Shown in pieces: positions 2,458-52,888 of a stretch of 64,000 bases of DNA (position 1 is the first letter of the stretch; each line of letters begins with the position of its first letter). Under the pieces are notes generated by a model, which searched no databases, had not been told where the DNA came from, and saw nothing but the letters and a program-made list of their open reading frames with translations. Position numbers and translations under genes: made by a program. The DNA comes from Phycisphaerae bacterium (GTDB lineage Bacteria; Planctomycetota; Phycisphaerae; Sedimentisphaerales; Anaerohalosphaeraceae). The stretch is from NCBI GenBank assembly GCA_018052735.1, contig JAGPMT010000003.1, positions 62,001-126,000 of the forward strand, in the 5' to 3' direction.

Positions 2458-3930
2458 ATGAACATAATGCAAAAGAAAATAACTTTTGGTGTCATTATCG
2501 GCACGCGTAATATTTTCAATGCCCATCTTGCCGCCAAACAAAGGCAAAAAATACTGAACCAGCTGGACCGGCTTGGATTCGGGTATGTTATTCCGGACGA
2601 AAAGGCCACTCGTGCAGGAGCAATTGAAACACGGGCAGACTCCAAAATCTGTGCTGAATTGTTCAAGGCACATCGAGATTTGATAGATGGAGTCCTGATT
2701 ATTTTGCCGAATTTTGGCGATGAATTGGGTATTATCCAAACGCTTCAGTTGGCAAAGCTCGATCTGCCGGTACTGGTTCAGGCCTGCAATGATGAAATCA
2801 GCAAGGTCGATGTAAAAAGCCGGCGTGATGCATACTGCGGCAAGATATCCGTATGCAATAATTTATACCAATATAAGATCCCCTTTACCGACACTACCGA
2901 GCACACCTGCGATATTGACAGTGAGCTTTTTGCCCAAGACCTGAAATACTTCGGATTTGTCTGCCGGGTTGTTAAGGGCCTGAAAAATGCCCGCATTGGA
3001 GCATTTGGGACCCGGCCGGCGGCGTTTCAGACGGTACGTTACAGCGAAAAACTTCTTCAGGCGGCAGGAATTACGGTGGTGCCGATCGATTTATCTGAAA
3101 TCTTTGCCCAAGCTCAAGCGCTGGATTCTTCAGCTGCGGCTGTCAAAAACAAACTGGCGGCCATCAAAGATTACGGCAGAATCCCCAAAGAGATAGCTCC
3201 TGAGGCGATTGTGAAACAAGCCAAATTATCGGTTGTGCTGGATAGACTGATGGAGGAAAACGAGTTGGATGCAAGCGCGATCCAATGCTGGAATTCTGTC
3301 GAAAACAATTACGGCTGTGCCGCGTGTCTGTCGATGTCCATGATGGGCCAGTGCTATATGCCCAGTGCCTGTGAAATGGATGTTACCGGTGTCATTTCGA
3401 TGTATACCCTGCTGCTGGCTGGAGGCAATATTCCCGCGCTGCTGGATTGGAACAACAATTATGGAAACCAGCGTGATATGTGCGTGTGCACACATTGCAG
3501 CAACTACCCCAAAGATTTCATAGGCAGCGAGATTGAGATATCGAACCTGGATGTACTGGGGACTGTATTAGACCGTAAAAACTGCTTTGGTGCTGTTAAA
3601 GGCAAAGCGGTACCGGGGCCTATGACTTTCTTCCGACTATCCACAGATGATACCAAAGGGCGGATTAAATCCTATCTGGGAGAAGGAGTATTTACGAACG
3701 ATCCGTTCGGAATGGATGGCGGGATTGCTGTCTGCAAGGTTAACAACCTGCGTCAGCTGCTTCGCTATATCTGTCAAAACGGCTATGAGCACCATGTCGG
3801 AATGGCTCGGGGGCTTAGCGCCAGAGTCATTTATGAGGCAGTATCAAACTATATGAAATGGGACATCTATTATCACAACGGTCAGAAATATAATGAATCC
3901 ATTCAATTTATCTGCGGACAAAATTGCTGA
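2458..3930 (+). CDS. L-fucose/L-arabinose isomerase-family protein; candidate apiose isomerase
   Basis: 490 residues, cytosolic, first gene of a four-gene operon. It resembles the FucI/AraA-like ketol isomerases (COG2407 type). The N-terminal ~200 residues are alternating alpha/beta Rossmann-like segments. The C-terminal half carries the metal-site region, with ACEMD (Glu306), LLDWN (Asp330) and CTHCSNY (His346) as the likely metal or catalytic residues. Such enzymes interconvert aldoses and ketoses using Mn2+. Because it is fused in an operon to a glycerol-kinase-like kinase and a split transketolase, I infer that it turns D-apiose into D-apulose, or acts on another unusual aldose. AAGGAGGT ends 3 bases before this ATG; an ATG at 2467 is the alternative start. 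Substrate is not readable from sequence: L-fucose, L-arabinose or a deoxy sugar remain possible. Confidence 0.75.
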   Translation: MNIMQKKITFGVIIGTRNIFNAHLAAKQRQKILNQLDRLGFGYVIPDEKATRAGAIETRADSKICAELFKAHRDLIDGVLIILPNFGDELGIIQTLQLAKLDLPVLVQACNDEISKVDVKSRRDAYCGKISVCNNLYQYKIPFTDTTEHTCDIDSELFAQDLKYFGFVCRVVKGLKNARIGAFGTRPAAFQTVRYSEKLLQAAGITVVPIDLSEIFAQAQALDSSAAAVKNKLAAIKDYGRIPKEIAPEAIVKQAKLSVVLDRLMEENELDASAIQCWNSVENNYGCAACLSMSMMGQCYMPSACEMDVTGVISMYTLLLAGGNIPALLDWNNNYGNQRDMCVCTHCSNYPKDFIGSEIEISNLDVLGTVLDRKNCFGAVKGKAVPGPMTFFRLSTDDTKGRIKSYLGEGVFTNDPFGMDGGIAVCKVNNLRQLLRYICQNGYEHHVGMARGLSARVIYEAVSNYMKWDIYYHNGQKYNESIQFICGQNC

Positions 3931-4717
3931 AAAAGCAAAAGAAATCCGAAAAAAGATAATTCAGACCAACGTCCATGCCGGACAGGGACATACCGGCAGC
4001 GACCTGTCGGAAACGGATATTCTGGCCTGTCTTTTTTTTCGCATCTTAAATATTGATAAGGAGCATATGGATGATCCGAATCGCGACCGATTTATCCTGA
4101 GCAAGGGTCATGGAGTTTGCGGATTGTACTGTACGCTTGCCGAGGCCGGATTTATTCCTGAGGAAAAGCTTGATACATACCTTCAGTTTGATTCGGACCT
4201 TCCGGGGCATCCTGTTCGACAGAAATGTTCTTTTGTCGAGTTGAATACTGGGGCACTGGGGCATGGTCTCAGTGTCGGGGCGGGGCTGGCTCTGAGTGCA
4301 AAAATGAATCATCGCAGCTTTCGGGTTTTTGTGCTGACTGGCGACGGGGAATTGCAGGAGGGATCCAATTGGGAAGCTGCTATGTGTGCGGCTCATTTCC
4401 ATTTGGATAATTTAGTTATGATTGTGGATAGAAACAAGCTGCAGCTTGCCGATGGCACAGAGACGATTATGGCTCTTGAACCTTTGGCTGACAAATTCAG
4501 GGCATTCGGATTTGATGTTCATCTCACCAACGGCAATTCCCCGGCGGCTATTATCCAGACAATCGAGGGATTGAACATGGATAATCAGAAGCCGAAAGCA
4601 GTCATTGCACAGACGACCAAAGGCAAAGGCGTTTCATTTATTGAAAACCAACCAGCCTGGCATCACCGAATTCCCAACAGGGAGGAAACGATTCGGGCGA
4701 TTGAGGAGCTTCAGTAA
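3893..4717 (+). CDS. Transketolase, N-terminal (ThDP-binding) subunit
   Basis: 274 residues, equal to the N-terminal domain of transketolase. SKGHG, ALGHGLSVGAGLA and the ThDP/Mg motif GDGELQEG (Asp151) with the matching Asn in VDRNKLQ are all present. The second half of the enzyme is the next gene, so this is the split type with two polypeptides forming one active site. The start overlaps the 3' end of the isomerase gene by 38 bases and the stop overlaps the next ATG (TAATG), indicating coupled translation. Split transketolases are found both in ordinary pentose metabolism and in sugar-specific routes such as apulose-4-phosphate transketolase (AptA/AptB). The operon context favours the second. 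By analogy with AptA, it would transfer a two-carbon unit to glyceraldehyde-3-phosphate. Confidence 0.85.
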   Translation: MNPFNLSADKIAEKAKEIRKKIIQTNVHAGQGHTGSDLSETDILACLFFRILNIDKEHMDDPNRDRFILSKGHGVCGLYCTLAEAGFIPEEKLDTYLQFDSDLPGHPVRQKCSFVELNTGALGHGLSVGAGLALSAKMNHRSFRVFVLTGDGELQEGSNWEAAMCAAHFHLDNLVMIVDRNKLQLADGTETIMALEPLADKFRAFGFDVHLTNGNSPAAIIQTIEGLNMDNQKPKAVIAQTTKGKGVSFIENQPAWHHRIPNREETIRAIEELQ

Positions 4718-5667
4718 TGATCCAACAGCAGCGATACGACTTGCGATGCGTCATGGTGCAGACTTTTATCGAAGCGGTAGAAAACAAGACCAATCTGGCA
4801 ATTGTGGTAAGCGACTCAACCAGCACATCCAAGATAGAACCATTTCAGGAGCGCTTTCCTGAACGATTAATCAATGTGGGCATTGCCGAACAGAATCTGG
4901 TTGGAATTGCGGCCGGCCTCGCGTTGGGGGGATTCGTCGCCGTGACGGCTAATGCGGCCTGCTTTCTTACAACGCGAGCCGCCGAGCAGGTTAAAAATGA
5001 CATCTGTTACTCCGATACGAATGTTAAATTGGTTGGATTGAACGCAGGTGTTTGCTACGGACCGTTAGCAAGCACCCATCATGCCATTGATGATATCTCC
5101 ATGATGCTGGGATTGGGCAATATTGTCATTCTCGCACCGTCCGATCCGCTTGATGCAAAGCAGATATTTGAGTATGCCCTTCGGCGGAAGGGTCCTGTCT
5201 ATATTCGCATGGACAATGACAAATTTCCTATCATCCATAAAGAAGAGTATCGGTTCCAACCCGGCAAGGCGGATATACTCCAAGAAGGCTCGGATCTTTC
5301 TATTTTCACAATGGGTTCTACGGCTTATGAGGCATACTTTGCGGCCCAAGCACTGCAGAATGATTCAATAAATGCTGAAGTTATTAATATCGCTTCGGTC
5401 AGGCCTCTGGATAGAGATTCCATAGCCGCATCTATTGCGAAAACCGGGCGGGTTATCACCGTCGAAGAGCATTCTCTGCACGGAGGTCTGGGAAGTTTGG
5501 TTTCTGAGGTTATCGCCAAGTGCGGCCTTAAAGCCAAACTGATAACACGGGGTATTCCGGAAGGCTGTTTTTCAAAAGCAGGCCCTCGCAATCAGATCCG
5601 CGCATACTATAAAATCGACAAAGATGGGATCATTGAAACAGCAAAACAGCTGCTGGCTGCCGATTGA
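4717..5667 (+). CDS. Transketolase, C-terminal (pyrimidine-binding) subunit
   Basis: 316 residues, equal to the central plus C-terminal domains of transketolase. NVGIAEQNLVGIAAGLA contains the conserved glutamate (Glu58) that activates ThDP. It is followed by the THHAIDDISMM substrate-side loop and the C-terminal transketolase domain (FTMGSTAYEA ... VEEHSLHGGLGS). It pairs with the product of the gene at 3893, whose stop codon it overlaps by one base. The kinase gene follows 23 bases after its stop. The inferred role is the B subunit of a sugar-specific transketolase, with D-apulose-4-phosphate as the best guess from context. A generic transketolase cannot be excluded. Confidence 0.85.
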   Translation: MIQQQRYDLRCVMVQTFIEAVENKTNLAIVVSDSTSTSKIEPFQERFPERLINVGIAEQNLVGIAAGLALGGFVAVTANAACFLTTRAAEQVKNDICYSDTNVKLVGLNAGVCYGPLASTHHAIDDISMMLGLGNIVILAPSDPLDAKQIFEYALRRKGPVYIRMDNDKFPIIHKEEYRFQPGKADILQEGSDLSIFTMGSTAYEAYFAAQALQNDSINAEVINIASVRPLDRDSIAASIAKTGRVITVEEHSLHGGLGSLVSEVIAKCGLKAKLITRGIPEGCFSKAGPRNQIRAYYKIDKDGIIETAKQLLAAD

Positions 5668-5690
5668 ATATAGAAGACAGGAACCGGCTT

Positions 5691-7187
5691 ATGAAGAATC
5701 CATATATTCTTGCTATTGATCAGGGCACAAGCGGCACCAAAGCGGTATTATTTGACGGCCAAGGACAGATTGCGGCCAAGGCATCAAGTCCGCTGCGTTC
5801 GTATTACCCCCGTCCGGGATTTGTGGAACAGGATCCTGAAGAAATCTATGAAAGCGTTCTTGACGCCGCAAGACAATGTATCCGTCAATTTACGGCACAA
5901 AACGGAAAAATCAGCGACATTGTTGCCTGCGGAATTTCCAATCAGCGGGAAACATTTTTGTTATGGGACAACACCGGCAGGCCCTTGTGTCCGGCAGTCG
6001 TATGGCAATGCAAGCGCTCGGTTGACATCTGCGAGCATCTGAAAGGCAGTGCTGTCGAAAAAGAAATCATTGCCAAAACAGGACTCCTTGCCGATCCCTA
6101 CTTTTCAGGCACCAAGCTGATCTGGCTGTACGAAAATAATCCCCGCATTCGAGATGCTGTTGCATCGGGCAACGCCTATTTTGGAACCGTCGACACTTGG
6201 CTTCTCTTTAAATTGACCAACGGAACACAGTATTGTACCGATTATACCAATGCTTCGCGGACCCTGTTTTTTAACATCCATACACTTCGATGGGATTTAG
6301 ACCTTCTGAAACATCTTTCATTGACGGGGCTGAATCTGCCGGAAGCCAGACCATCTGCGTATCTGTATGGCGCATCGGATTTTCAGGGACTTTTCCAGAA
6401 AGCGGTTAAGATTAGCGCAATGATCGGGGATTCCCATGCCGCTGCCATGGGGGAAGGGTGTTTTGATGTTGGAACAGCCAAGGCAACGATGGGAACGGGC
6501 TGTTCGATTCTGTTGAACACAGGTTCCAAACCAGTTCAATCCCAATACGGCATGGTCACAACTATCTGCTGGAGTGCACAAGACAGGGTGGATTATGCCT
6601 TAGAGGGCGTCATTGTCACATGCGGGGCTGCAATCAAATGGATACGGGACCAGCTGGGCCTGTTTGGTGATAGTCGCGAAACGGAGGCGATGGCTCGGGC
6701 GGTACCTGACAGCAACGGAATTGCTTTTATCCCTGCCTTCAGCGGACTTGGTACGCCATACTGGCGGATGGATCTTAAGGCTGCCATTGCGGGTCTGACT
6801 TTGGGGTCTGATAAACGGCATGTTGTGCGTGCAGCTCTCGAATCTATACCCATCCAGATTAAAGATGTAATTGATGCAATGCAGGCCGACAGCGGCATCC
6901 AGCTTGCCGGTTTAAACGTTGATGGGGGTATTACAGCTAATAGATTTGTGATGCAGTTTCTGGCTGATTTGCTGAATGTACAGGTTACCAATATTGGAAT
7001 GGAAGAAGTCTCTGCTCTCGGCGCTGCCTACCTGGCAGGTCTGCAGGAAGGTGTTTTTAGTAATCTTGCTGTACTGGCCAAGCTTAATCAAGATAAGACT
7101 GTCTTTTCTCCGGTCCAGGATCGTATGTATGCCAGCGATGCCTATAAAGAATACCAAAAATATCTGCATATACTCCTAAAAGCATAA
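5691..7187 (+). CDS. FGGY-family carbohydrate kinase, glycerol-kinase-like; candidate apulose kinase
   Basis: 498 residues from the ATG at 5691 (an in-frame TTG at 5664 is the alternative), close to the ~500 of glycerol kinase. Both FGGY ATPase-fold halves are present: LAIDQGTSGTKAVLF at the N-terminus and MGTGCS, GLGTPYW and LNVDGG in the second half. It keeps most of the glycerol site: NQRET (Arg86, Glu87), DPYFS (Tyr137) and Asp247. The glutamine that normally follows that aspartate in glycerol kinase (GDQQ) is replaced here (GDSH). D-apulose ends in a C(OH)(CH2OH)2 group that looks like glycerol, so a modified glycerol kinase is a sensible apulose 4-kinase. That is inference from operon context; glycerol or another ketose remain possible. 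It is the last gene of the operon. Confidence 0.82.
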   Translation: MKNPYILAIDQGTSGTKAVLFDGQGQIAAKASSPLRSYYPRPGFVEQDPEEIYESVLDAARQCIRQFTAQNGKISDIVACGISNQRETFLLWDNTGRPLCPAVVWQCKRSVDICEHLKGSAVEKEIIAKTGLLADPYFSGTKLIWLYENNPRIRDAVASGNAYFGTVDTWLLFKLTNGTQYCTDYTNASRTLFFNIHTLRWDLDLLKHLSLTGLNLPEARPSAYLYGASDFQGLFQKAVKISAMIGDSHAAAMGEGCFDVGTAKATMGTGCSILLNTGSKPVQSQYGMVTTICWSAQDRVDYALEGVIVTCGAAIKWIRDQLGLFGDSRETEAMARAVPDSNGIAFIPAFSGLGTPYWRMDLKAAIAGLTLGSDKRHVVRAALESIPIQIKDVIDAMQADSGIQLAGLNVDGGITANRFVMQFLADLLNVQVTNIGMEEVSALGAAYLAGLQEGVFSNLAVLAKLNQDKTVFSPVQDRMYASDAYKEYQKYLHILLKA

Positions 7188-19669: not shown

Positions 19670-21754
19670 ATGAGAAGAATCATTTACATTTTAATATGTA
19701 TATGCATGGCATCGGGCGTATCAGCTCTGTCGATTACCAACGGGGACTTTGAGGCCTTAGGAGTTCGCGAGGATGTGCCCTACTGGTTCGACTATAATGT
19801 AGGCACTGGGGCCGCAGGGACTTACCTGCGACTCCTTAACAGTCCAAACGGCACGCAGTATATGGGTTTAGCTGACGGCAACTCTTGGGCCTATCAGAGC
19901 ATCGGTTTCAATACGGAAAGATTGCCTGCGCTGCAGATTCAGTATGACATCGGGCGAACGACAAATGCGGCGGAGCCGCGTGATCTGGTTATTACTGTGT
20001 CAATCTATGAATCGGACGGCTCATTTGCAGGTTCCGATGGGCCGCGTTCATCGGATATTGACGGAGTCAAAGGTGTTAAGCTGATTGACTCTATGCGTGT
20101 CGCATATCCTGCGGTTGCTCCGGGTCAGGTTATCACAGATTCGGTTACGCTTCATTATTTGGATTCGACCGTCGGCGAGCTTTTTTTGCGTTTTAGGAAT
20201 AACGGCGATGGGAATAGCGACACCGAAGACCTTGCTGTGATTGATAATGTCCAGATTGCTGAACTTGTCAGCGTTGTCAATCCGCTTCCGAAGAATGGCA
20301 CCAATTATGTTGCAGTTGAACGTACTTCAGGCCAAAACGATTTAATTTTCACTGTTGCCGACAGCGAGATTATAAAAATAGATGTTCTATTCGGCCCGGA
20401 TCCCAATCTGTCGGAGGCGCATAAGATTGTGAATGGCCTGTCCGTTTCGCCGGGACAATATGCCATTACCCTTGAGAGCGAATTGTCTCAAGACCTTGCA
20501 TACAGCACAGACTATTTCTGGAAAGTCCTTGCTTATGAACCCAACGGGATCGAGCTGTCTCTGAAATATCAGAGTCCGGCCTGGAGTTTTAGAACCAGAC
20601 AGAAAGGCCCCTACCTCGGTGACGTTGATCCCTACAAGCTCGGTGTTCATCCCGGCCAAGATGCTGTTTTCACAGTGGAGTACTACAACAATACAGACTC
20701 CTTCCAATGGTACAAAGCCGGTGTTGGTGCACTGACCAATGGTGCAAAATATGCCGGCGTCAACACGGATACACTGACTGTTCGCGACGCTCAGTTAGCC
20801 GATGCGGGATTGTACTATTGCGTCGGGACAGAAACGGCGACAGGACTGACGGCTCAGACTTTGACCAGCGGCGAGTTAAAGATCAAGCAATTGATGACGT
20901 ACTACCCATTTGAGACCACCTATAATGCGGGCGGCAAGATTTACACCCCGGATATCGTAAGCGGCAAAGATATGGAGTTGAAGAATGGAGCGAGCTTGAG
21001 CGATGCGTATTCGCTTGTGGGTAAAAACCTGTGGCTTGACAATCCGAAGAATCAGTACGCGCAGATTGCAGATAACACAGTGGCTCATTATGATGATATT
21101 ACCATCAGCTTCTGGTGTTATGCGACAACTCTGGTTAATACAACCGATGGGGACCGATGGGCCCGAGTCTTTGACTTTGGCAAAGATTCGACGGAATATA
21201 TTTTCTTTACATTGCTTTACCGGCAAGATGATCCCAGACAAAACGGTCTGGATGTGGCTCGTTGTGAGCTGAGATATTATGATGCTCAAGGAGTGGCACA
21301 TAATCCGGAACTCGACGTGGAACACCCGGATATTGCCGCCGGAAGGTGGTATTTTGTGGCGATAACCATCGAAGCGGATGAGGACGGCCAAGGCGGCACA
21401 GGACGCATTTATTTTGGCGGAGAACACGGAACAGAGACCGAAACCCCACAAATAATGAATATACCCAAGATGACAGAGATAACAAAGACACTTCATTATA
21501 TCGGCAAAAATATCGGATTTACGGCCCCTCTCTTTAATGGCAGGATCGATGAATTCAAGATCTATAACTATGCCCGAACAAAAGAGGAAATTGCTCAGGA
21601 ATACTACGGTATAACGGGTGATGCATCCGTTTGTGATATGGAAAACTATGATTTGTACGACTATGACTACGATCGGAACTGTGTGGTTGATCTTTCTGAT
21701 TTTGCCAAGATAGCCGTCCGCTGGCTGGATGATTACCGAATTTATGCCGAATAA
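19670..21754 (+). CDS. Secreted Ig-like / LamG / dockerin-like surface protein (paralogue 2)
   Basis: 694 residues, a tandem paralogue of the preceding protein, 43 bases downstream. Domain order is the same: signal peptide (MRRIIYILICICMASGVSA), SITNGDFE sandwich, fibronectin-like domain with DYFWKVLAYEPNG, Ig-like domain with FQWYKAG and DAGLYYCVGTET, LamG-like domain ending in FNGRIDEFKIYNYART, and dockerin-like tail (DRNCVVDLSDFAKIAVRWL). The stretch AAAGGATGGAAAAATGAGAA around the start codon is shared with paralogue 1, pointing to a duplication that included the translation-initiation region. A rho-independent terminator follows the stop. The likely role is surface binding of pectin fragments or adhesion; this is inference. 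Confidence 0.75.
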   Translation: MRRIIYILICICMASGVSALSITNGDFEALGVREDVPYWFDYNVGTGAAGTYLRLLNSPNGTQYMGLADGNSWAYQSIGFNTERLPALQIQYDIGRTTNAAEPRDLVITVSIYESDGSFAGSDGPRSSDIDGVKGVKLIDSMRVAYPAVAPGQVITDSVTLHYLDSTVGELFLRFRNNGDGNSDTEDLAVIDNVQIAELVSVVNPLPKNGTNYVAVERTSGQNDLIFTVADSEIIKIDVLFGPDPNLSEAHKIVNGLSVSPGQYAITLESELSQDLAYSTDYFWKVLAYEPNGIELSLKYQSPAWSFRTRQKGPYLGDVDPYKLGVHPGQDAVFTVEYYNNTDSFQWYKAGVGALTNGAKYAGVNTDTLTVRDAQLADAGLYYCVGTETATGLTAQTLTSGELKIKQLMTYYPFETTYNAGGKIYTPDIVSGKDMELKNGASLSDAYSLVGKNLWLDNPKNQYAQIADNTVAHYDDITISFWCYATTLVNTTDGDRWARVFDFGKDSTEYIFFTLLYRQDDPRQNGLDVARCELRYYDAQGVAHNPELDVEHPDIAAGRWYFVAITIEADEDGQGGTGRIYFGGEHGTETETPQIMNIPKMTEITKTLHYIGKNIGFTAPLFNGRIDEFKIYNYARTKEEIAQEYYGITGDASVCDMENYDLYDYDYDRNCVVDLSDFAKIAVRWLDDYRIYAE

Positions 21755-21875: not shown

Positions 21876-22808
21876 ATGCATGCCAATATGTCGAATGGAG
21901 TAAAATGTCAGGGGGTTATTGTTCCCATGGCAACCCCCTTTACCTTGGAAGGACACATTGACGCAAAGGCTGTTCATCGGATTGTCGAGCATCTGATTGG
22001 CGGGGGCGTCGACGGCATATTTGTCCTGGGAACAACTGGCGAGGCTGCTTCGATATCGCTGGCGGAAAAAGTGAAGATGGTTCAAATAACCGCCGATTGC
22101 GTCGATAACAGGGCCCTTGTTTATGCGGGCATATCGAGCAATTGTTTTAACGAGTCGATCACGATGGCCCGGGACTTCAAAGACTTTGGGGCTGATATCA
22201 TGGTGGCTCATCCGCCTTATTATTATTCCTTGAATGCCGGTGAGCTGTTCAATTATTTCATAAAATTGGCAGATTCCATTGCAACTCCTTTGATGATTTA
22301 TAATATACCCCAGACGACCGGTGTTTCACTTCCTATTGACATTGTGGAAAAACTGAGCCGTCATAAATGGATAGTCGGCTTAAAAGATTCGGAAAACAGC
22401 CCCGGACGATTGGAAGCAGCTGTTGAACGATTTGCGCGCCGAAGCGATTTTTCTTATGTTGTCGGCTGTGCAGCGCTTTCGGCTAAGGCCTTATCAATGG
22501 GGGCGGCAGGAATTGTTCCGAGTGCTGCAAATCTTCAGCCCGGACTCTATAAAAAGCTTTATGAAAATGCACTCACCGGCAGCGTATCCGCTGCACAGGA
22601 ACTTCAAAAGCAGACGGATCAGATTTCAGCACTGTATCAGGGCCCCAGATCCTTGGGGCAGTCGTTGGCCGCATTGAAGGCGGCTATGCATCTTCTTGGG
22701 CTGTGCGAACCCACAGTATTGCCTCCTCTTCAGACAGTTCAAAAGCATGAGATAGCCGAGATACAGCAGCAAATGGCAAAATTGTGCATTAATACAGTTA
22801 TTTCATAA
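21876..22808 (+). CDS. DapA/NanA-family lyase (2-keto-3-deoxy-acid aldolase candidate)
   Basis: 310 residues, a complete class I (Schiff-base) aldolase of the dihydrodipicolinate synthase / N-acetylneuraminate lyase family. Motifs in order: GTTGE at 52-56, YNIP with Tyr142, and GLKDS with the Schiff-base Lys170. Members either condense or cleave pyruvate-containing acids. The next genes, 18 bases on, are a PdxA2-like dehydrogenase and a DUF1537 kinase, so biosynthetic DapA is unlikely. It more probably cleaves a 2-keto-3-deoxy sugar acid to pyruvate plus an aldehyde. Candidates are KDG from galacturonate, or the RG-II sugars Kdo and Dha. No clear ribosome-binding site is seen; the ATG at 21888 is an alternative start. 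Confidence 0.8.
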   Translation: MHANMSNGVKCQGVIVPMATPFTLEGHIDAKAVHRIVEHLIGGGVDGIFVLGTTGEAASISLAEKVKMVQITADCVDNRALVYAGISSNCFNESITMARDFKDFGADIMVAHPPYYYSLNAGELFNYFIKLADSIATPLMIYNIPQTTGVSLPIDIVEKLSRHKWIVGLKDSENSPGRLEAAVERFARRSDFSYVVGCAALSAKALSMGAAGIVPSAANLQPGLYKKLYENALTGSVSAAQELQKQTDQISALYQGPRSLGQSLAALKAAMHLLGLCEPTVLPPLQTVQKHEIAEIQQQMAKLCINTVIS

Positions 22809-22826
22809 TTCCGCGAAAGATGGAGT

Positions 22827-23852
22827 ATGACTGAACGAAGACCGATTCTTGGAATAACGATGGGGGATCCTGCCGGCATTGGTCCTGAAATAGCGGTCAA
22901 AGCGCTTGCAGATAAAAACGTGTATACAATAGCCAAACCGATTGTTGTTGGGGATGCATCTGTTATTGCCCGGGCGACCCAGATTGCGGGAGTCAGTCTG
23001 CAGGTAAGAGCGGTTTCGAACATTGGGGAAGCGCTATTCCAATATGGAACGGCGGATGTCTTGGATTTGAACAATGTGGATACAGGCAGGCTGGAGTATG
23101 GAAAAGTCTGTCCAATGGCCGGCAAGGCAGCCTTTGAGGCTGTCGAAAAGGCAATAATGCTGGCGATGAGCGGTCAAATCGATGCGACCGTCACCGGACC
23201 CATTAACAAGGAGTCTTTGAATAAAGCCGGATACCCTTATTCGGGTCATACCGAAATATTTGCTGCATACACAAAGACACGGCAGTATGCCATGTGTCTG
23301 ATTGAGGGAAATATGCGGGTCGTGCATGTATCTACGCATGTTTCGCTGAAACGGGCATGTGAACTTGTCAAGACGGAGCGGATTCTGGAAGTAATTAAAT
23401 TGGCACACGATCTATGCAAGCGATTGGGTATCGAGCAGCCTGCAGTTGGAGTGGCAGGATTGAATCCGCATGCAGGTGAGGGCGGTTTGTTTGGGGATGA
23501 GGAGGCAAAGGAAATAATGCCCGCGATAGAAACGGCCAGATGTTTTGGAATTGATGCCGATGGTCCTGTTCCGGCAGATACGCTGTTTTCTAAGGTCAAA
23601 GGAGGCCAGTATGATATTGCTGTGGCGATGTATCATGACCAAGGACATATTCCTGTGAAAGTAACCGGATTTGTACTGAATCATAAATCGAAAAAGTGGG
23701 AGTCGGTTAAAGGTGTAAACATTACACTTGGGCTTCCCATTATTCGGACGTCGGTGGATCATGGAACGGCTTTTGACCAGGCAGGCAAGGGGACTGCAAA
23801 CGAGGAAAGCTTGATTCTCGCAATCGAATATGCTGCCAAGCTGGCGGTGTAA
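22827..23852 (+). CDS. pdxA2: PdxA2-like 4-phospho-tetronate dehydrogenase (PdxA family)
   Basis: 341 residues with all PdxA landmarks: MGDPAGIGPE near the N-terminus, VTGPINKES, SGHTE, and the metal-binding histidines in HVSLK, GLNPHAGEGG and MYHDQGHIPVK. Classic PdxA oxidises 4-phospho-hydroxythreonine for vitamin B6. The PdxA2 branch is known to oxidise and decarboxylate 4-phospho-D-threonate or -erythronate to DHAP, and is found next to DUF1537 kinases exactly as here (kinase 23 bases downstream). That arrangement, not a diagnostic residue, is why I prefer PdxA2. GGAG precedes the ATG. Confidence 0.8.
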   Translation: MTERRPILGITMGDPAGIGPEIAVKALADKNVYTIAKPIVVGDASVIARATQIAGVSLQVRAVSNIGEALFQYGTADVLDLNNVDTGRLEYGKVCPMAGKAAFEAVEKAIMLAMSGQIDATVTGPINKESLNKAGYPYSGHTEIFAAYTKTRQYAMCLIEGNMRVVHVSTHVSLKRACELVKTERILEVIKLAHDLCKRLGIEQPAVGVAGLNPHAGEGGLFGDEEAKEIMPAIETARCFGIDADGPVPADTLFSKVKGGQYDIAVAMYHDQGHIPVKVTGFVLNHKSKKWESVKGVNITLGLPIIRTSVDHGTAFDQAGKGTANEESLILAIEYAAKLAV

Positions 23853-23875
23853 TACGATTCTCTTTAAGGGATATT

Positions 23876-25060
23876 ATGATCGTTGTTGTAGCAGATGACT
23901 TGACAGGTGCCGCCGAGATTGCAGGAATCGGTTGTGGTTGTGGTATGACCGCAGAACTCCAGAGAGGATTTTGTTCGAAGACTGACGCACAGCTGTTGGT
24001 TATCGACACAGACACCCGATCGCTGTCACCTCAGCAGGCTGGGCAGAAAATACGGCACCTAGCTCAGGGTCTTAATGCATCAGGCCTTCCTATAGAGTGG
24101 ATTTATAAAAAGACCGATTCGGTTCTTCGTGGGCCGGTTGGCTGTGAATTGGAAACGCTGCGTGAAGAAATGCACGCGGCGAGAGTGTTGCTTGTTCCGG
24201 CCAATCCCTCAAAAGGCAGGATTGTGCGTGACGGAATTTATCTTATCAGGAATCAGCTGTTGAGCGAGACAGAATTTGCACGCGATCCTGAATATCCCGC
24301 AGCTACTTCAAATGTTCTTAAAATGCAGGGTCTGTTCGGTTTCGATCAAGTATGTTGTCTTGATACGCATCAGCCGTTTCCCAATGAAGGAATCATAATT
24401 GGACAGGCTGAAACGACCGATGACCTGATGCGGTGGGCACAGCGAATAGATGAGCAAACACTGCCGGCAGGAGCCGGGGAGTATTTTGAAGCGATTCTGA
24501 AAAACAAAGGTTTTTCCAAAAAACCGCATGTGGATGAAATAGACTATCAGCTGAATACCAAGACATTGTATGTCTGCGGGAGCAGTTCGAATGCCAGCCG
24601 TCAGGCTTTGCGAAAAGCAGAAAGTCTAGGGATGAAAGTATGCAGGATGCCGGCCGGGCTGTTTAGACCGGATTGTGACGAACAGAACACATTTCTGCAG
24701 TGGACTGAAGAGGTAATCGGCAGTCTTCAATACAGCAGCCGTGTTATCGTAGCAATCGATCGTGAAATAGTCCCTGATGTTGCCGTCAGACTTCGCGGTC
24801 TAACAGCCAAGCTGGTGCAGGCAGTGATCTGTGAGATTCCTTTAAGCGAGTTGTGGGTGGAAGGAGGCGCAACGGCCTCTGCGATCGCAGACAGCTTCGG
24901 ATGGGTCCGTTTTGCACCGTGCTTTCAACTGGAACCAGGCATTGTACGAATGAAGGTAATGAACGCCGATAATGTCTATCTGACGGCGAAACCCGGCAGC
25001 TATGCCTGGCCGGCAGGTATTTTGAATTTCTTTTCGAAAGGATTTTACTGTGCCCCGTGA
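23876..25060 (+). CDS. DUF1537 four-carbon acid-sugar kinase (DtnK/OtnK-like)
   Basis: 394 residues. The N-terminal domain starts with the family signature VVADDLTGAAE and contains KKTDSVLRGPVG, the substrate-side motif. The C-terminal nucleotide domain contains LYVCGSSSNASR and ELWVEGGATASAI. DUF1537 proteins phosphorylate four-carbon sugar acids: D-threonate, D-erythronate, 3-oxotetronates, and in one apiose pathway 3-oxo-isoapionate. The PdxA2-like neighbour argues for a D-threonate or D-erythronate kinase giving 4-phospho-tetronate. The 3' end overlaps the symporter gene by 11 bases, so the four genes from 21876 form one operon. Confidence 0.85.
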   Translation: MIVVVADDLTGAAEIAGIGCGCGMTAELQRGFCSKTDAQLLVIDTDTRSLSPQQAGQKIRHLAQGLNASGLPIEWIYKKTDSVLRGPVGCELETLREEMHAARVLLVPANPSKGRIVRDGIYLIRNQLLSETEFARDPEYPAATSNVLKMQGLFGFDQVCCLDTHQPFPNEGIIIGQAETTDDLMRWAQRIDEQTLPAGAGEYFEAILKNKGFSKKPHVDEIDYQLNTKTLYVCGSSSNASRQALRKAESLGMKVCRMPAGLFRPDCDEQNTFLQWTEEVIGSLQYSSRVIVAIDREIVPDVAVRLRGLTAKLVQAVICEIPLSELWVEGGATASAIADSFGWVRFAPCFQLEPGIVRMKVMNADNVYLTAKPGSYAWPAGILNFFSKGFYCAP

Positions 25061-26642
25061 AACACTGCATTGGATAGATTGGTTGATTATACTATTTTAC
25101 TTGGGATTGATAATTTATCTGGGCAAAAAATTTTCCGAAAAGGGCAAATCAACAGATAGTTACTTTGTCGGAAGCCGAACCATTCCAGCGTGGGCAATCG
25201 GCATGTCAGTTTTGGCCACCCTCATCAGCAGCGTAACATTTTTAGCCTATCCCGGCCAGGGATTCAGCGGCAATTGGATTCTGCTGGTGCAGGGATTGGC
25301 TGTACCGATAACATTATTGACATTTGTCTGGCTTATTGTTCCTCTGTATCGGCGGTTTATTGGCCTCAGTGCCTATGAATATTTTGAAAAACGGTTCGGA
25401 TTTTTTGCCCGCTTGTACAGTTCTATGGGATTTATCATGATGCACTTTACAAAAATGGGAACCGTTTTCTATCTTCTCGCTATGGCGCTGGCTTCTATGA
25501 CCGGACAAAACACTTATGGTATCGTTGCAGCGGTTGGCATTGTTACAATTCTGTATACTTTAGCCGGAGGCATTGAAGGCGTTATCTGGATGGATGTTAT
25601 ACAGGGACTTATTCTTATTGCAGGGGGGATTGCCAGTTGTCTTATCTTGCTGCTTCACTCAGCACAAGGCCCTGTTCCAGTGCTTCAGACAGCATGGGAA
25701 AGCGGGAAGATGAGCATTGGCGAGTTCACATGGGATTTTACACGACTTACATTTTTCGTAATGTTTATCAACGGGATTTTCTACGCAATTCAAAAATACG
25801 GTACCGATCAGACCATTGTTCAGCGATTTCTGGTTGCTCAAACCGATAAAAAAGCAATCAAAGCGGCCTTGGTGGGGACATTTTTATGTGTGCCTGTATG
25901 GACATTGTTTATTTTTATCGGTACATTGCTGTGGGTTTACTACCGTAGGCGCCCGGAACTGCTGGCCCAAGGTATTACAGGCGACCAGGTTTTTCCATAT
26001 TTTATTATGACGCAGATGCCTGTCGGATTGACTGGACTGATTGTTTCGGCTTTATTTTCGGCCGCTATGTCTACCCTCGATTCAGATTTGAATTGTCTTG
26101 CGGCCGTAGGTGTTGAAGATTACTACAAGAGATTCAAGAAAAATGCTGATGATCAGCGGTGTTTGCATTTGGGAAAGATGATTGTCTTGACGTGCGGAAT
26201 CATCTCCGTCGGCATCGCCTGTCTGTATATCCACTTAGGAGGCGAGGCAATTCTGGGAACATTATTTGAACTGTATGCTATCTTTTCCGGCGGGATCGCC
26301 GGGATCTTTTTGCTTGCTTTTTTTACAGTGCGTGCAAATCGAAAAGGACTTAATATAGGAATAACAGCCTGTATTGTATTTACGGCCTATGCTGTACTGA
26401 CCTCCACAAAATTCGATCTGGGCGGCTCAGAGAAACAGCTTATACTCGATTTGGGACGGTATAACTTTCCCCATCATAAATATATGCTTGGAGTTTACAG
26501 CCACCTGATTTTGTTTGTTGTGGGTTATTTGGCCAGTTTCTTTTTCAAGCCGGATAAGGAGGTGAGGCAAATGACAGTTTACGGATGGATTGAAAGACAA
26601 AAAAATATACCCCCTGACCTGGCCGAAAAGAGTAAGACCTAA
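25050..26642 (+). CDS. Sodium/solute symporter (SSS family)
   Basis: 530 residues from a GTG (MPRETLHWIDWLIILFYL), with about 13 hydrophobic segments. SSS features are clear: YFVGSRTIPAWAIGMSVLATLISS near TM2, GGIEGVIWMDVIQG, TDQTIVQRFL, and FSAAMSTLDSDLNCL at the sodium-site helix. It overlaps the acid-sugar kinase gene, so it most likely imports the sugar acid or oligogalacturonide processed by this operon with Na+. A gene on the opposite strand ends 55 bases downstream and no terminator hairpin is evident. It is one of three SSS transporters in the window. Confidence 0.88.
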   Translation: MPRETLHWIDWLIILFYLGLIIYLGKKFSEKGKSTDSYFVGSRTIPAWAIGMSVLATLISSVTFLAYPGQGFSGNWILLVQGLAVPITLLTFVWLIVPLYRRFIGLSAYEYFEKRFGFFARLYSSMGFIMMHFTKMGTVFYLLAMALASMTGQNTYGIVAAVGIVTILYTLAGGIEGVIWMDVIQGLILIAGGIASCLILLLHSAQGPVPVLQTAWESGKMSIGEFTWDFTRLTFFVMFINGIFYAIQKYGTDQTIVQRFLVAQTDKKAIKAALVGTFLCVPVWTLFIFIGTLLWVYYRRRPELLAQGITGDQVFPYFIMTQMPVGLTGLIVSALFSAAMSTLDSDLNCLAAVGVEDYYKRFKKNADDQRCLHLGKMIVLTCGIISVGIACLYIHLGGEAILGTLFELYAIFSGGIAGIFLLAFFTVRANRKGLNIGITACIVFTAYAVLTSTKFDLGGSEKQLILDLGRYNFPHHKYMLGVYSHLILFVVGYLASFFFKPDKEVRQMTVYGWIERQKNIPPDLAEKSKT

Positions 26643-37708: not shown

Positions 37709-37843
37709 AATGATTAGCTGCTTTGCGCGCCTGATTGCTTGGCAGGTTTATAGAAGCTTTATATTTGACAGGATGCATTTTATTTCTTGTGGTTTTCGAA
37801 TGCCCATAAGTCAATTTTTTTGCGGAACTGGAATTTTGAGCCT

Positions 37844-39046
37844 ATGATGAAAATATTATTGAGGCTGTGTATTTTCTTGTTTGTTTTGAGCTTAAATGCT
37901 GTGAGTGCCCACGAACCGCCAAAAGAGGCAGATAGCACGCAACCTTCTACAATCCCAACTGCCGGACAAGAGTTGTGCCAGCAGCAACCTGCTTCGTTCA
38001 AGCCGGGACTGGTGCTTGAAGAATTTGTTTTTACCAACGCCCCTTTTCCCTCTTGTCATGCAGCAACTATCGCCGAAGTCAATGGGGAGTTAGTCTGCGC
38101 CTTTTTTGGCGGAACGGCCGAACGCAATCCTGATGTCGGCATCTGGATCAGTCACACATTCAGCGGCAAGTGGACTCCGGTTGTCGAAATTGCCAATGGT
38201 ACAATTACACCCGAACTGCGATACCCAACTTGGAATCCGGTTCTGTTTTTGCCCAAAGGTGCAGAACTGCTACTGTTCTATAAAGTTGGCCCATCCCCGA
38301 CCCAATGGTGGGGCATGATGATGACGTCTTCCGACGGCGGTTGGAACTGGAGTAAGCCCAAAACTATAATCGGTGAAAAAGGCAAGGCACTGATTGGGGC
38401 AGTCAAAAACAAGCCGATCCAATTGTCCGATGGTACGATTTTGGCCCCTTCGAGCCGTGAAGACAGCGGGTGGAAAGTTCATATTGAGGCCAGCAGCGAC
38501 AACGGCAAAACCTGGACTGAGCTGACCGGGCCGCTGAACGATCCCAATGAAATGTCCGCTATCCAGCCGACATTATTGACATATCCCAATGGACAAATCC
38601 AGATGCTTTGCCGCAGCCGGCAGGATAGAATCTTAGAAACATGGTCCGGAGACGGCGGAAAAAACTGGTCACCAATGCAGCCGACAATACTGCCGAATCC
38701 GAACTCAGGAATTGACGGCGTAACACTGGCAGACGGCCGTCAGCTGCTTGTTTATAACCATTCGACTCGCAGCCAGCCGGCTGTGGGGCACAAAGGGCGC
38801 GGAATCCTGAATGTTGCGCTCAGCCGCGATGGCAAAAATTGGCAGGCGGCATTGGTCCTTGAATACGAAGACCAGCCAAACAGCCAATTTTCTTACCCAT
38901 CCGTGATTCAGACTGCTGACGGATTGGTACACATTGTATATACTTGGCATCGTCAACGGATCAAGCATGTAGTGCTGAATCCAGAGAAACTCCAAACCGT
39001 ACCGATGCCCGACGGACAATGGCCGAAGAATGCCTATCCACGATGA
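37844..39046 (+). CDS. Secreted sialidase-fold (six-bladed beta-propeller) exo-glycosidase-like protein
   Basis: 400 residues from the ATG at 37844, with a signal peptide (LLRLCIFLFVLSLNAVSA). Four Asp-box repeats of the S-x-D-x-G-x-x-W type are visible: SSDGGWNWSKP, SSDNGKTWTEL, SGDGGKNWSPM and SRDGKNWQAAL, the signature of sialidase-like propellers. CHAATIAEVNGELVCAFFGGTAE at the N-terminus is typical of this bacterial group. An obvious sialidase FRIP motif is not seen, so sialic acid is an unlikely substrate. In this pectin block a Kdo-, rhamnose- or uronic-acid-linked side chain is more plausible. Neighbours are the UroD-like gene upstream and the DUF6298-like gene 205 bases downstream. 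Confidence 0.72.
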   Translation: MMKILLRLCIFLFVLSLNAVSAHEPPKEADSTQPSTIPTAGQELCQQQPASFKPGLVLEEFVFTNAPFPSCHAATIAEVNGELVCAFFGGTAERNPDVGIWISHTFSGKWTPVVEIANGTITPELRYPTWNPVLFLPKGAELLLFYKVGPSPTQWWGMMMTSSDGGWNWSKPKTIIGEKGKALIGAVKNKPIQLSDGTILAPSSREDSGWKVHIEASSDNGKTWTELTGPLNDPNEMSAIQPTLLTYPNGQIQMLCRSRQDRILETWSGDGGKNWSPMQPTILPNPNSGIDGVTLADGRQLLVYNHSTRSQPAVGHKGRGILNVALSRDGKNWQAALVLEYEDQPNSQFSYPSVIQTADGLVHIVYTWHRQRIKHVVLNPEKLQTVPMPDGQWPKNAYPR

Positions 39047-44042: not shown

Positions 44043-47000
44043 ATGCTTAAAACCAGGCAATTTCTAGTTATAGTGAGATTGTTGTCTATTTTGTTGCCGG
44101 CCTCTGCTCTTTGGGCAGCCGTAGGTGATGAAGAGGAACCTGTTCGATTTGTGGGGGAGGTAAAAGTATCCAACAGCGATTACAAAAACGGCTATCATGA
44201 CGGTCAGATGCCGGTAGCGATCGGCGTACAAAATTATCAAATCCTGCGGGCCAATCGAACCCATCCAGAGTTCTCTGATGGATTGGGTTGGACCTATAAT
44301 CATGCACCGATGCTGGCTTATGTCAACGGGCAGTTTTATTGTCAGTACTTGACGAATCCCTGCGGAGAGCATATTCCCCCCGGTATGACGATGCTTACAC
44401 GGTCATTGGATGGAAAGCACTGGACCAAGCCGCAGGTTCTGTTTCCGATTTATTTTACCGCTGATCCGAATGATGCAACTCGTATAACGTTTGTATTTAT
44501 GCATCAGCGAATGGGTTTTTATTTGGCTGACAATGGGCGGTTTTTGACGATGGCTTTTTATGGATCGCCTGATGGGGATGGAGTGGGTCGGGTTGTCCGG
44601 GAGATATATGCGGATAATTCATTGGGACCGATTTATTTTATTCGCGTAAATGACAACTGGACAGGCGAGGTGAAATATCCTCTCTATACCGCTTCACCTG
44701 ATGCCGGATTTGTGGAGGCCTGCCGCAGCTTTCTGGAAGATAAAATTCGAAGGATTCAGTGGTGGGAAGAGGATTATCAAGCCAAAGATAGAGACGACTT
44801 TTACCGCGTCACATGGGGCGGTGATATAGGCCGCTCAAGACCGGCCAAGGCATTTTGTTTTTATACACGACCGGATGGTGCGGTGGTCGGTTTCTTCAAA
44901 AGCCGGTGGGTTACGATGACCCGTGATCAGGGACAAACCTGGTCTCCGCTGGTCCAGTGCAGCACATTAACCTATGGCAGTGCTAAAATCTGGGCACAAA
45001 AACTGGACAACGGCCAATATGCCTTGGTTTATAATCCTACCGACAGCGAAGCCCGCCATCCGCTGTGCATCGCCGTCAGCAAGGATGCGATACATTATGA
45101 CCATCTTGTCAACATTCACAGCGAAGTTCCTCCCAAGCGGTTCTGGGGTCGGGAAAAACGTCCGGGTCCCCAATATGTACGCGGGATTGTTGAAGGCAAT
45201 GGCAATCCGCCCGGCAGCGACTTATGGGTCGTATATTCCGTGAACAAGGAAGACATCTGGATATCCCGTGTTCCAGTTCCTGTTCAATGGCAGGTGCAGG
45301 GTTCTGTTGCGGATGATTTCAGCCAAATGGACACTGGGGGTGTTATTAAAGGTTGGAATATCTATTCTCCGCAATGGTGTCCAATAGAAGTTGTAGATTT
45401 TCCCAGCAAAGCTGACAAAAGTATGCGGATCAAGGATGCCGATCCTTATGATTATGCCAAAGCGGTAAGGGTTTTTCAGAAATCAGCCAATCTGATATGT
45501 TCTTTCCAGCTGTATATTGAATCGTCTGCACAAGTTCTGGATATCGAGATTGTTTCAACAAAAGGCAGCCGTCTGGTTCAAACACGGCTGGATACCAGCG
45601 GTCGTCTGCTGACAAAAAATGGAAACCAACCTTATCAGACGGTTGCGGCATTGAATTCAGGAAAATGGTATTCAGTTGAATTTCATGTTGATGCGCCAAA
45701 ACAGCAGTATTCTGTTCTATTGGATGGAAATATGATCTTACAAGATGCTTCTTTTTCATCGGTCGAAGAACTGCCGGAACGAATAGTTTTCCGAACCGGC
45801 CCCTATCGGCTGGCCGATGATGTTCAAAAATACAAAAGCGGCAGCGAGCGTATACCGGGTACAGATGAACCGGGAGCCGATGAACAGGTTGAAGCTGCAG
45901 TATATTACATCCAAGATTTCCGTGCCTTTGATACGGGACAGTCTGTATTATCCCCCAGGACCTTTGAGCACTATATCGATGATTTTAACAGCATGGAAGA
46001 AGAAAATATTGTCAATGAAATACCAAACGCCCAATCTTGGGATTGGATCAAAGAAAATGTCCCCCTCTTCGAATGCCCCGATAAAACACTTGAGCAAATC
46101 TACTATTATCGCTGGTGGACTTTTCGCAAACACCTAAAACGGACGCCGGACGGCTACGTCTTCACCGAATTTCTTGACAGTGTTGGTCACAGCGGCAAAT
46201 ACAACACGATCAGCTGTGCAGTTGGTCATCATATCTATGAAGGGACATGGCTAAGAGACTGCCGCTACATTGATGACTATGCCCGATTCTGGTACACCGG
46301 ACATAACGGCGGTTTGCAGCCGCATTTCCACAAATACAGCAACTGGGCTACGGCAGCATTATATCGCCGGTATTTGGTTAATCAGGATAAACTGTTTATC
46401 ATAGGCCTGCTGGACGCTTTTGTGCAGGATTATCAAGCCTGGGTTGATGAAAAAGCTGCGGAGAATGGGCTTTTCTGGCAATACGATGTCCGGGATGGAA
46501 TGGAAGAGTCCATCAGCGGCAGCCGAACAATTAAAAATATGCGGCCTCCGCTGAACTGCTATATGTACGCCAATGCTATGGCTATTGCGAAAATTGCCGA
46601 GGTGGCGGGCAATCTTGAGCTGTCAAAAGAATACATTCAGAAAGCATCCGACTTGAAGTTGCGGATTCAGCAGCTGATGTGGGATGGTACATCCGCGTTT
46701 TTCAAAGTACGCCATCCGGACGGCACATTGGCTAATGTTCGGGAGGAACTTGGCTATATTCCGTGGTATTTTAATCTGCCGGAGAAAGGTTTTGAAGCGG
46801 CCTGGCAGCAGTTCACGGATCCGCAGGGTTTTAAAGCTCCTATGGGAATTACAACCGCCGAACGGCGGCATCCTGAATTTCGCAGTCATGGGGTCGGAAC
46901 CTGTGAATGGGATGGTGCTGTTTGGCCGTTCGCAACAAGCCAGACTCTGACGGCCTTGTCAAACTTCCTGCGGTATTATAGCCAGTCGTATGTCAGCAAA

Positions 47001-47405
47001 AAAGACTACTTTGAGGCCTTGTTGACTTATGCCCGCTCGCATCAGCGCAACGGCAAACCTTATATCGGGGAATACCTCGATGAAATCAGCGGTATCTGGC
47101 TGACACCGGATTCGAATCGAAGCCGCTACTACAATCATTCAACTTTTTGCGATCTGGTCATTTCAGGATTGGTCGGTTTACTGCCTCGGGAAGATGACAT
47201 TGTAGAGGTTGATCCGCTTCTTCCCGATGGGGCATGGGATTGGTTCTGTCTGGACAGGGTAGTCTATCATGGAAAAATCCTTACGATATTGTGGGACCGA
47301 ACCGGTGAAAAATATAACCAAGGAAAGGGATTTCGAATTTTTGCAGACAGCAAAGAAATCGGACATGCCGATGAGCTGTCGCACCTAACAGTAAAACTTC
47401 AATAA
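44043..47405 (+). CDS. Secreted propeller plus (alpha/alpha)6 enzyme resembling the GH143-GH142 fusion of RG-II degraders
   Basis: 1120 residues, signal peptide (LVIVRLLSILLPASALWAA). Residues ~45-410 look like a sialidase-type propeller (WTYNHAPMLAYVNGQFYCQY, TRSLDGKHWTKPQ, TRDQGQTWSPL, SKDAIHYDHL). Residues ~420-620 are a concanavalin-like beta-sandwich (DDFSQMDTGG, SGKWYSVEFHVD). Residues ~660-1100 form a six-hairpin (alpha/alpha)6 barrel (EGTWLRDCRYIDDYARFWYTG, YANAMAIAKIAEVAGN, GTCEWDGAVWPFATSQTL). A bifunctional Bacteroides enzyme with this order, GH143 Dha-hydrolase followed by GH142 beta-L-arabinofuranosidase, removes RG-II chain D. I assign by architecture and length, not by identified catalytic residues. 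Confidence 0.6.
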   Translation: MLKTRQFLVIVRLLSILLPASALWAAVGDEEEPVRFVGEVKVSNSDYKNGYHDGQMPVAIGVQNYQILRANRTHPEFSDGLGWTYNHAPMLAYVNGQFYCQYLTNPCGEHIPPGMTMLTRSLDGKHWTKPQVLFPIYFTADPNDATRITFVFMHQRMGFYLADNGRFLTMAFYGSPDGDGVGRVVREIYADNSLGPIYFIRVNDNWTGEVKYPLYTASPDAGFVEACRSFLEDKIRRIQWWEEDYQAKDRDDFYRVTWGGDIGRSRPAKAFCFYTRPDGAVVGFFKSRWVTMTRDQGQTWSPLVQCSTLTYGSAKIWAQKLDNGQYALVYNPTDSEARHPLCIAVSKDAIHYDHLVNIHSEVPPKRFWGREKRPGPQYVRGIVEGNGNPPGSDLWVVYSVNKEDIWISRVPVPVQWQVQGSVADDFSQMDTGGVIKGWNIYSPQWCPIEVVDFPSKADKSMRIKDADPYDYAKAVRVFQKSANLICSFQLYIESSAQVLDIEIVSTKGSRLVQTRLDTSGRLLTKNGNQPYQTVAALNSGKWYSVEFHVDAPKQQYSVLLDGNMILQDASFSSVEELPERIVFRTGPYRLADDVQKYKSGSERIPGTDEPGADEQVEAAVYYIQDFRAFDTGQSVLSPRTFEHYIDDFNSMEEENIVNEIPNAQSWDWIKENVPLFECPDKTLEQIYYYRWWTFRKHLKRTPDGYVFTEFLDSVGHSGKYNTISCAVGHHIYEGTWLRDCRYIDDYARFWYTGHNGGLQPHFHKYSNWATAALYRRYLVNQDKLFIIGLLDAFVQDYQAWVDEKAAENGLFWQYDVRDGMEESISGSRTIKNMRPPLNCYMYANAMAIAKIAEVAGNLELSKEYIQKASDLKLRIQQLMWDGTSAFFKVRHPDGTLANVREELGYIPWYFNLPEKGFEAAWQQFTDPQGFKAPMGITTAERRHPEFRSHGVGTCEWDGAVWPFATSQTLTALSNFLRYYSQSYVSKKDYFEALLTYARSHQRNGKPYIGEYLDEISGIWLTPDSNRSRYYNHSTFCDLVISGLVGLLPREDDIVEVDPLLPDGAWDWFCLDRVVYHGKILTILWDRTGEKYNQGKGFRIFADSKEIGHADELSHLTVKLQ

Positions 47406-52420: not shown

Positions 52421-52888
52421 AAAGAGTTCCAATGATTTTGCGATATGTCTAACATTAAATCTTGCTGCCGGTCGATGAGTACTTGGCTTGGGTTTCTGAT
52501 ATGACCAATCGCTATATGAAACTTCTGATAAGCCAACAGGGCGGAAGCCAAACCAATGAAGTTCGGAATACCTGTAAGATAAAATGACACAGGAACATTA
52601 TAATAAGATGCAGCGACATTCCTCAAAGAGACGGCTATAAATTCATTTTAAAATGTTATGGAATAAGAAATGAACCTGAAGGATGATATTCTGATGCACC
52701 ATCATGAAAGAATTTATCCTAAAATTCAACATGAATTCCCTATCGTGGGGAATCAAGTATAAAATGCACTGAAAAGCATGGACTCTTTTATGAAATCTGC
52801 TTATAATTATTGCCACTAACGGATTCGATGCAGCTGTCAAGAGGGCGTTTTGCTTTATCGACAAATCCGGCTTATTTCGGAGACTGAC
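52421..52888. other. Intergenic region inside the rhamnose/pectin block
   Basis: 468 bases, AT-rich, the largest gap between 32 and 58 kb. I see no RNA gene or intrinsic terminator. A minus-strand frame at 52417-52626 (69 codons) has no recognisable family. A secondary promoter for the mutarotase and downstream genes may be located here. Confidence 0.45.

Follow-up and report, generated by a model that had tools for sequence, protein, structure and literature searches.

A DapA-type aldolase-PdxA-DUF1537 kinase operon conserved in three phyla as a probable catabolic route for the rhamnogalacturonan II sugar Dha

We analyzed a 64,000-nucleotide window of the genome of a Phycisphaerae bacterium (assembly GCA_018052735.1, contig JAGPMT010000003.1), concentrating on a tandem four-gene operon at positions 21876-26642 of the plus strand. 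The genome carrying the window is that of a planctomycete and is 2.9 Mb in size and 96% complete (contig label G000:C42). The operon encodes a DapA-family aldolase (21876..22808; PF00701, 209 bits), a PdxA2-type dehydrogenase/decarboxylase (22827..23852; PF04166, 354 bits), a DUF1537 (SBD_N/NBD_C) kinase (23876..25060; PF07005, 111 bits), and an SSS-family sodium:solute symporter (25050..26642; SSF PF00474, 130 bits). The intergenic gaps are 18 and 23 bp, and the kinase and symporter genes overlap by 11 bp. An initial annotation of the window had proposed that these genes act together in the degradation of Dha (3-deoxy-D-lyxo-2-heptulosaric acid), a sugar of rhamnogalacturonan II (RG-II). All four open reading frames were recovered with Pfam support. 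The same locus contains a pectin/RG-II type gene set (pectate lyase, GH95, GH78 rhamnosidase, apiosidase-like, GH141-like, and DUF6298 proteins).

The operon is not a chance stack of genes: the same order recurs in at least 12 genomes of three phyla, with aldolases of roughly 40-65% identity. The order iron-containing alcohol dehydrogenase (Fe-ADH)-DapA-PdxA-DUF1537(-SSS) is conserved in Planctomycetota, Bacteroidota, and KSB1. A contig search for relatives of the aldolase alone, which used two strict peptide patterns and returned just five loci, detected the set including Fe-ADH in a planctomycete (L077), in a member of Bacteroidales (L078), and in KSB1 (L079); in L080, the set is present and a LacI-type regulator gene precedes the aldolase gene. 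The symporter of the window is 73% and 80% identical to the same-position symporters of the relative G311 and of L077, respectively. Among 395 Bacteroidota genomes, five close members of the kinase were found, all five in the arrangement Fe-ADH-DapA-PdxA-kinase, and a kinase search of 337 class-level genomes yielded further operon loci.

A DUF1537 kinase paired with PdxA2 is the established route from D-threonate and D-erythronate to dihydroxyacetone phosphate (DHAP), and a few more distant relatives (G955 and G598) have the PdxA and kinase genes with no aldolase gene nearby. The operon could thus serve plain use of environmental D-threonate or D-erythronate, with the aldolase and Fe-ADH engaged in some side reaction. 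We regard this as extremely unlikely, because every locus with a close kinase and enough flanking sequence contains the aldolase gene, most contain the Fe-ADH gene, and genes for GH143 proteins (see below) cluster with the set.

A C7 3-deoxy-2-ulosarate split at the C3-C4 bond yields pyruvate plus an omega-aldehyde acid of four carbons, which would account for the reductase placed ahead of a kinase for C4 acids. In a stereochemical check, D-lyxo Dha led to D-threuronate and from there to D-threonate; the arabino or ribo configuration led to L-erythronate. The earlier Fischer-projection argument, according to which the acid is D-threo and is reduced to D-threonate, was therefore correct. Judging from gene content, gene order, the aldolase clade, the conserved catalytic residues, the association with GH143 through both clustering and co-occurrence, and stereochemical consistency, we consider it quite probable that the operon encodes a Dha catabolic route comprising aldolase, reductase, D-threonate kinase, and PdxA2, leading to DHAP. 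Each enzymatic step, and Dha as the imported sugar, are inferred. The GH143 protein of the window would release Dha from side chain D of RG-II, while stand-alone GH143 proteins of relatives may release it from other polysaccharides (e.g., algal ones). The symporter would import Dha, and the aldolase would split it between C3 and C4 into pyruvate and D-threuronate (2,3-dihydroxy-4-oxobutanoate). D-Threuronate would then be reduced to D-threonate, by the operon Fe-ADH in most relatives and by some other enzyme in the window genome. The DUF1537 kinase would convert D-threonate to D-threonate 4-phosphate, which the PdxA2-type enzyme would oxidize and decarboxylate to DHAP and CO2. At the genomic level, the sequence of reactions envisaged in the initial annotation is supported by the Fe-ADH gene upstream of the aldolase gene and by the GH143 clustering and co-occurrence.

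GH143 is the family of the Dha hydrolase BT1020. The protein encoded at 44043..47405 (plus strand), noted previously as GH143/142-like, aligns end to end with PDB 5mqr (1037 bits, residues 50-1116) and matches PF24067 BT_1020 (276 bits). These matches identify it as a true GH143-GH142 protein and BT1020 orthologue, with proposed functions in L-arabinofuranose removal and Dha release from RG-II chain D. In relatives, GH143 genes are physically linked to the operon. In G1071, the genes SSS-FeADH-DapA-PdxA-KIN-GH143-GH143-GH143 are consecutive on one strand (L224 7877-19680). In G1023, the operon is followed by three genes for GH143 homologues approximately 5-12 kb downstream on the same strand; in G426, a GH143 gene lies approximately 7 kb after the symporter gene, on the same strand and among BNR and LamG genes; and in G923, a GH143 gene adjoins the kinase gene at the contig end. 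The RG-II locus of G959 harbors, on one 45-kb contig, a GH143-142 gene (product 78% identical to that of the window) and the full operon with Fe-ADH. PF24067 confirmed the linked GH143 proteins, and an alignment to 5mqr, made for one of them, covers its GH143 half. The GH143 contig of KSB1 has five gene families in common with the G426 and G469 clusters and ends near a gene for a transporter homologous to the one encoded after the G469 operon, while the KSB1 operon contig ends in the kinase gene. This is consistent with the two contigs being one broken locus.

GH143 also co-occurs with the operon. Its background frequency is 2-5% overall (8 of 392 planctomycete genomes over the cut-off; approximately 21 of 395 Bacteroidota genomes). 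It was detected in all four genomes from the aldolase-only search, in three of the five Bacteroidota operon genomes (Fisher p=0.0012; 0.014 without the center genome), and in 7 of 10 operon genomes tested genome-wide, the window genome included. With G1023, G1071, G923, and G959 added, the count is 11 of 14 operon genomes of known state, a total that leans upward since these last four were settled by linkage. Some operon genomes are related and thus not independent (e.g., G393 and G395). Physical linkage is the stronger evidence.

The operon is found in two settings, namely in RG-II loci (the window, G959, and G428) and in clusters of BNR, LamG, and probable sulfatase genes with few RG-II enzymes (G426, G469, and KSB1). 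This fits the occurrence of Dha in both RG-II and algal material: the sugar is reported in RG-II (PMC12168206), specifically in its chains C and D (PMC12282258), and in prasinophyte scales (PMC10762512) and Tetraselmis thecae/walls (PMC7693365).

In most relatives, the Fe-ADH gene is located directly upstream of the aldolase gene. In G311 (same order), identities for the four operon genes are 54, 65, 44, and 73%, and an Fe-ADH gene comes immediately before them. In G959, the Fe-ADH gene (L218:1535-2728) lies between a LamG gene (L218:2822-4948) and the aldolase gene (L218:637-1593). The window has a gene for a LamG/Ig secreted protein just upstream of the operon (19670..21754, plus strand; 66%-identical counterpart in G959), and just 121 bp separate it from the aldolase gene, where G959 has the Fe-ADH gene. 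The operon Fe-ADHs are group III iron-containing alcohol dehydrogenases (PF00465/PF25137 domains) whose metal ligands D205, H209, H274, and H288 (G959 numbering) are invariant in 11 sequences. They group with lactaldehyde reductase and 4-hydroxybutyrate dehydrogenase, with which they share the family, the metal ligands, and an omega-aldehyde-acid type of reaction; they differ in scoring below every curated equivalog cut-off listed, and their substrate is a prediction. 4-Hydroxybutyrate dehydrogenase reduces succinic semialdehyde, and threuronate is dihydroxysuccinic semialdehyde. The operon Fe-ADH of the relatives is predicted to be the missing aldehyde reductase, with D-threuronate as its substrate. 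The PanE-like gene at 58215, a remote reductase candidate in the initial annotation, was discarded: it is a normal member of the ketopantoate reductase family (TIGR00745, 221 bits; cut-off 141), lies on the opposite strand near polA, and does not accompany the operon in those relatives that were examined.

The aldolase belongs to the dihydrodipicolinate synthase (DHDPS)/N-acetylneuraminate lyase (NAL) superfamily of class I aldolases, and the Schiff-base Lys, the catalytic Tyr, and the GTTGE motif are present. Lys170, Tyr142, and GTTGE 52-56 are invariant among 17 operon aldolase homologues, while the DHDPS Arg following YNxPx, which binds aspartate semialdehyde, is absent in all 17 and replaced by Thr in nearly all. 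A maximum-likelihood tree was built from 61 DapA-family proteins of planctomycetes, Bacteroidota, and KSB1; in it, all ten operon members fell on a single branch with 100/100 support. Thus, the operon aldolases are a distinct clade that travels with PdxA and the kinase in Planctomycetota, Bacteroidota, and KSB1. Three known functions were rejected for the window aldolase: housekeeping DHDPS (TIGR00674, 181.7 vs. cut-off 206; diagnostic Arg missing), N-acetylneuraminate lyase (NF003164, 138.7 vs. 281; TIGR00683, 112.8 vs. 382), and archaeal-type 2-keto-3-deoxygluconate (KDG)/2-keto-3-deoxy-6-phosphogluconate aldolase (NF040954, 123.2 vs. 390). Other DapA-family copies exist in the same genome (e.g., C18:65549). 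As a separate observation, the solved structure that most resembles the operon aldolases is PDB 4xky (225 bits vs. 163 for the next), which was deposited as a dihydrodipicolinate synthase and is presumably from Bacteroides thetaiotaomicron; its true substrate may merit retesting.

DapA-family KDG-type aldolases (YagE, 117 bits) and FucO-type Fe-ADHs are among the closest characterized relatives, and galacturonate and rhamnose come from pectin. One could therefore envisage two unrelated routes in one operon: an aldolase for KDG, 2-keto-3-deoxygalactonate, or 2-keto-3-deoxy-rhamnonate with a lactaldehyde/glycolaldehyde-type Fe-ADH and, separately, the kinase and PdxA acting on D-threonate/D-erythronate. 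We consider this arrangement very unlikely. The aldolase clade is monophyletic and accompanies PdxA and the kinase at the examined loci of three phyla, the window aldolase falls far short of the NCBIfam cut-offs for KDG aldolase and NanA and also misses the one for DapA, and the clustering with GH143 would be left unexplained.

The operon PdxA is the second PdxA of the genome, the housekeeping one being encoded on contig C56. With scores of 296 bits for 2hi1, 279 for 6e85 (D-threonate 4-phosphate dehydrogenase), and 197 for 1ps7 (4-hydroxythreonine-4-phosphate dehydrogenase), its sequence resembles PdxA2-type structures more closely than it does the classical PdxA 1ps7. The metal-site residues His167, 171, 215, 270, and 274 are invariant in six operon PdxA homologues. 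The kinase, the sole DUF1537 protein of the genome, is a four-carbon acid sugar kinase by family (PF07005, 111.1 over 25), with a weak PF17042 (NBD_C) match of 27.3, just under 28.3.

Several observations weigh against the Dha route. The PdxA scores 328.2 with the D-threonate-4-phosphate dehydrogenase equivalog NF002891, below the cut-off of 583, and the best NCBIfam model of the kinase, D-threonate kinase DtnK (NF047819), is matched at 109 (cut-off 450) in the N-terminal half only. The Fe-ADH gene lies beside the operon in relatives, but a protein search of the window genome found no Fe-ADH of the operon type, and a PF00465 search of the same genome gave a single weak 33-bit match on contig C29. 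The reductase of this genome must therefore be another enzyme. The related G1073 operon also lacks an Fe-ADH gene. Furthermore, the operon is absent from 18 of 21 GH143-positive Bacteroidota, and G157, G209, and G261, of the same family as the window genome, have GH143 and no kinase. As most GH143 genomes are without it, the operon is not the sole way to live with Dha. From G157, G209, and G261 versus G311, GH143 and the operon had at first seemed unconnected, but the wider survey reversed this impression. Finally, G311, G469, and G571 have the operon but, genome-wide, no GH143; in G311 and G469, other sialidase-like BNR_2 proteins are encoded beside the operon, perhaps another Dha hydrolase or enzymes for another sugar.

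These last three genomes lend weight to the idea that the operon degrades, by the same chemistry, a different 3-deoxy-2-ulosonic/ulosaric acid released by GH143-like or BNR_2 proteins (e.g., another stereoisomer, a ulosaric acid carrying O-methyl or sulfate groups, or a derivative of 3-deoxy-D-manno-oct-2-ulosonic acid [Kdo]). So do the three divergent GH143 paralogues in each of G1071 and G1023, as substrates may vary within the clade. Still, we judge a different acid unlikely, since a C4 acid that has to be reduced before a four-carbon acid kinase can act on it arises solely from a C7 ulosaric acid, and the lyxo configuration of Dha gives exactly D-threonate, whereas Kdo would give D-arabinose. 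To our knowledge, Dha is the sole natural C7 ulosaric acid.

Some additional observations concern GH143 and its neighbors. The three divergent paralogues lie close together in both genomes (G1023, L220:12152-18966; G1071, L224:7877-13881), which suggests different Dha linkages. Members of one BNR_2 (sialidase-like) family are encoded next to the operon in each of G311, G426, and G1071 (L049:4992-6620, L122:2548-3690, L122:7880-9484, and L224:4870-6093). The family is a candidate new ulosonic/ulosaric acid hydrolase and is present in G311 despite the lack of GH143 there. The BNR_2 protein of the window (37787-39046) is 55% identical to a protein of the G428 RG-II locus (L125:17625-18758) and weakly similar to GH143; it is a candidate Kdo or Dha glycosidase. 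In several RG-II loci of GH143-positive Bacteroidota (L177, L179, L181, and L184), a divergent DapA-family gene adjoins a gene for an SSS symporter resembling the one at window positions 50834-52420 and lies approximately 8-20 kb from GH143. It perhaps encodes an alternative Dha or Kdo aldolase.

By analogy, the operon logic would join a glucarate-style aldolase and reductase to the known D-threonate kinase/PdxA2 pathway. In glucarate/galactarate degradation by 5-keto-4-deoxyglucarate aldolase GarL, tartronate semialdehyde reductase GarR, and glycerate kinase GarK, a 3-deoxy-2-keto-aldarate likewise yields pyruvate and an omega-aldehyde acid, which is then reduced and phosphorylated. However, Dha is one carbon longer (C7), the aldolase is of the DapA rather than the HpcH/HpaI family, the operon relatives have an Fe-ADH instead of a beta-hydroxyacid dehydrogenase, and PdxA2 is required to convert the C4 acid to DHAP. 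With D-threonate/D-erythronate catabolism (DtnK/DenK and PdxA2), the operon has in common two enzyme families, their adjacent genes, and the expected products DHAP and CO2. It differs in that the aldolase, with the reductase in relatives, would make D-threonate intracellularly and in that its kinase, of a divergent subfamily, does not reach the cut-off of the DtnK model. NanA catabolism is similar in its DapA-superfamily aldolase, 3-deoxy-2-ulosonic sugar, release by a beta-propeller glycosidase, and, in some bacteria, SSS-type import, but the operon aldolase is far below the NanA models, and a C4 acid pathway takes the place of N-acetylmannosamine kinase/epimerase. BT1020/RG-II loci of Bacteroides share the GH143-GH142 orthologue and DUF6298, GH78, BNR_2, and apiosidase-like proteins with the window; unlike it, most GH143 Bacteroidota surveyed lack the operon, and several have the divergent DapA-like and SSS genes near GH143.

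Two other regions of the window have counterparts near operons of relatives. At 2458..7187 (plus strand), genes for a FucI-like sugar isomerase, a split transketolase, and an FGGY kinase may form an apiose-type route; the set is reminiscent of the apulose-4-phosphate transketolase route for apiose. In G428, the homologues (L124/L243; 49, 44, 39, and 60% identical) are clustered on one strand together with a ribose-type ABC transporter and the contiguous Fe-ADH-DapA operon. The operon of this genome is thus joined to a possible apiose-type operon; apiose, too, is an RG-II sugar. The RhaM-like (52850-53227), RhaT-like (55718-56794), and URO-D-like (56840-58057) genes have counterparts directly after the operon symporter gene in L077 (L077:14923-17519; 80, 30, and 79% identity), which raises the question of a mutarotase or demethylation role.

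In the open full-text literature, outside of which most subscription journals lie, we found no description of a Dha catabolic pathway, and literature on threuronate/tetruronate and on DUF1537 with rhamnogalacturonan did not describe it either. It seems rather likely that the operon represents the first Dha catabolic pathway, present in at least three phyla among degraders of RG-II and of algal Dha polysaccharides, in which the DapA-clade Dha aldolase and the Fe-ADH-type D-threuronate reductase would both be new; where GH143 is absent, the BNR_2 neighbor may be a new family of Dha-releasing glycosidases. Dha is a signature RG-II sugar of vascular plant walls and is also reported from prasinophyte scales and Tetraselmis walls. 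A five-gene pathway with every step named is directly testable. It would assign a function to a clade of DapA, PdxA, and Fe-ADH genes that carry generic annotations and would provide a genomic marker for Dha utilization in sediments.

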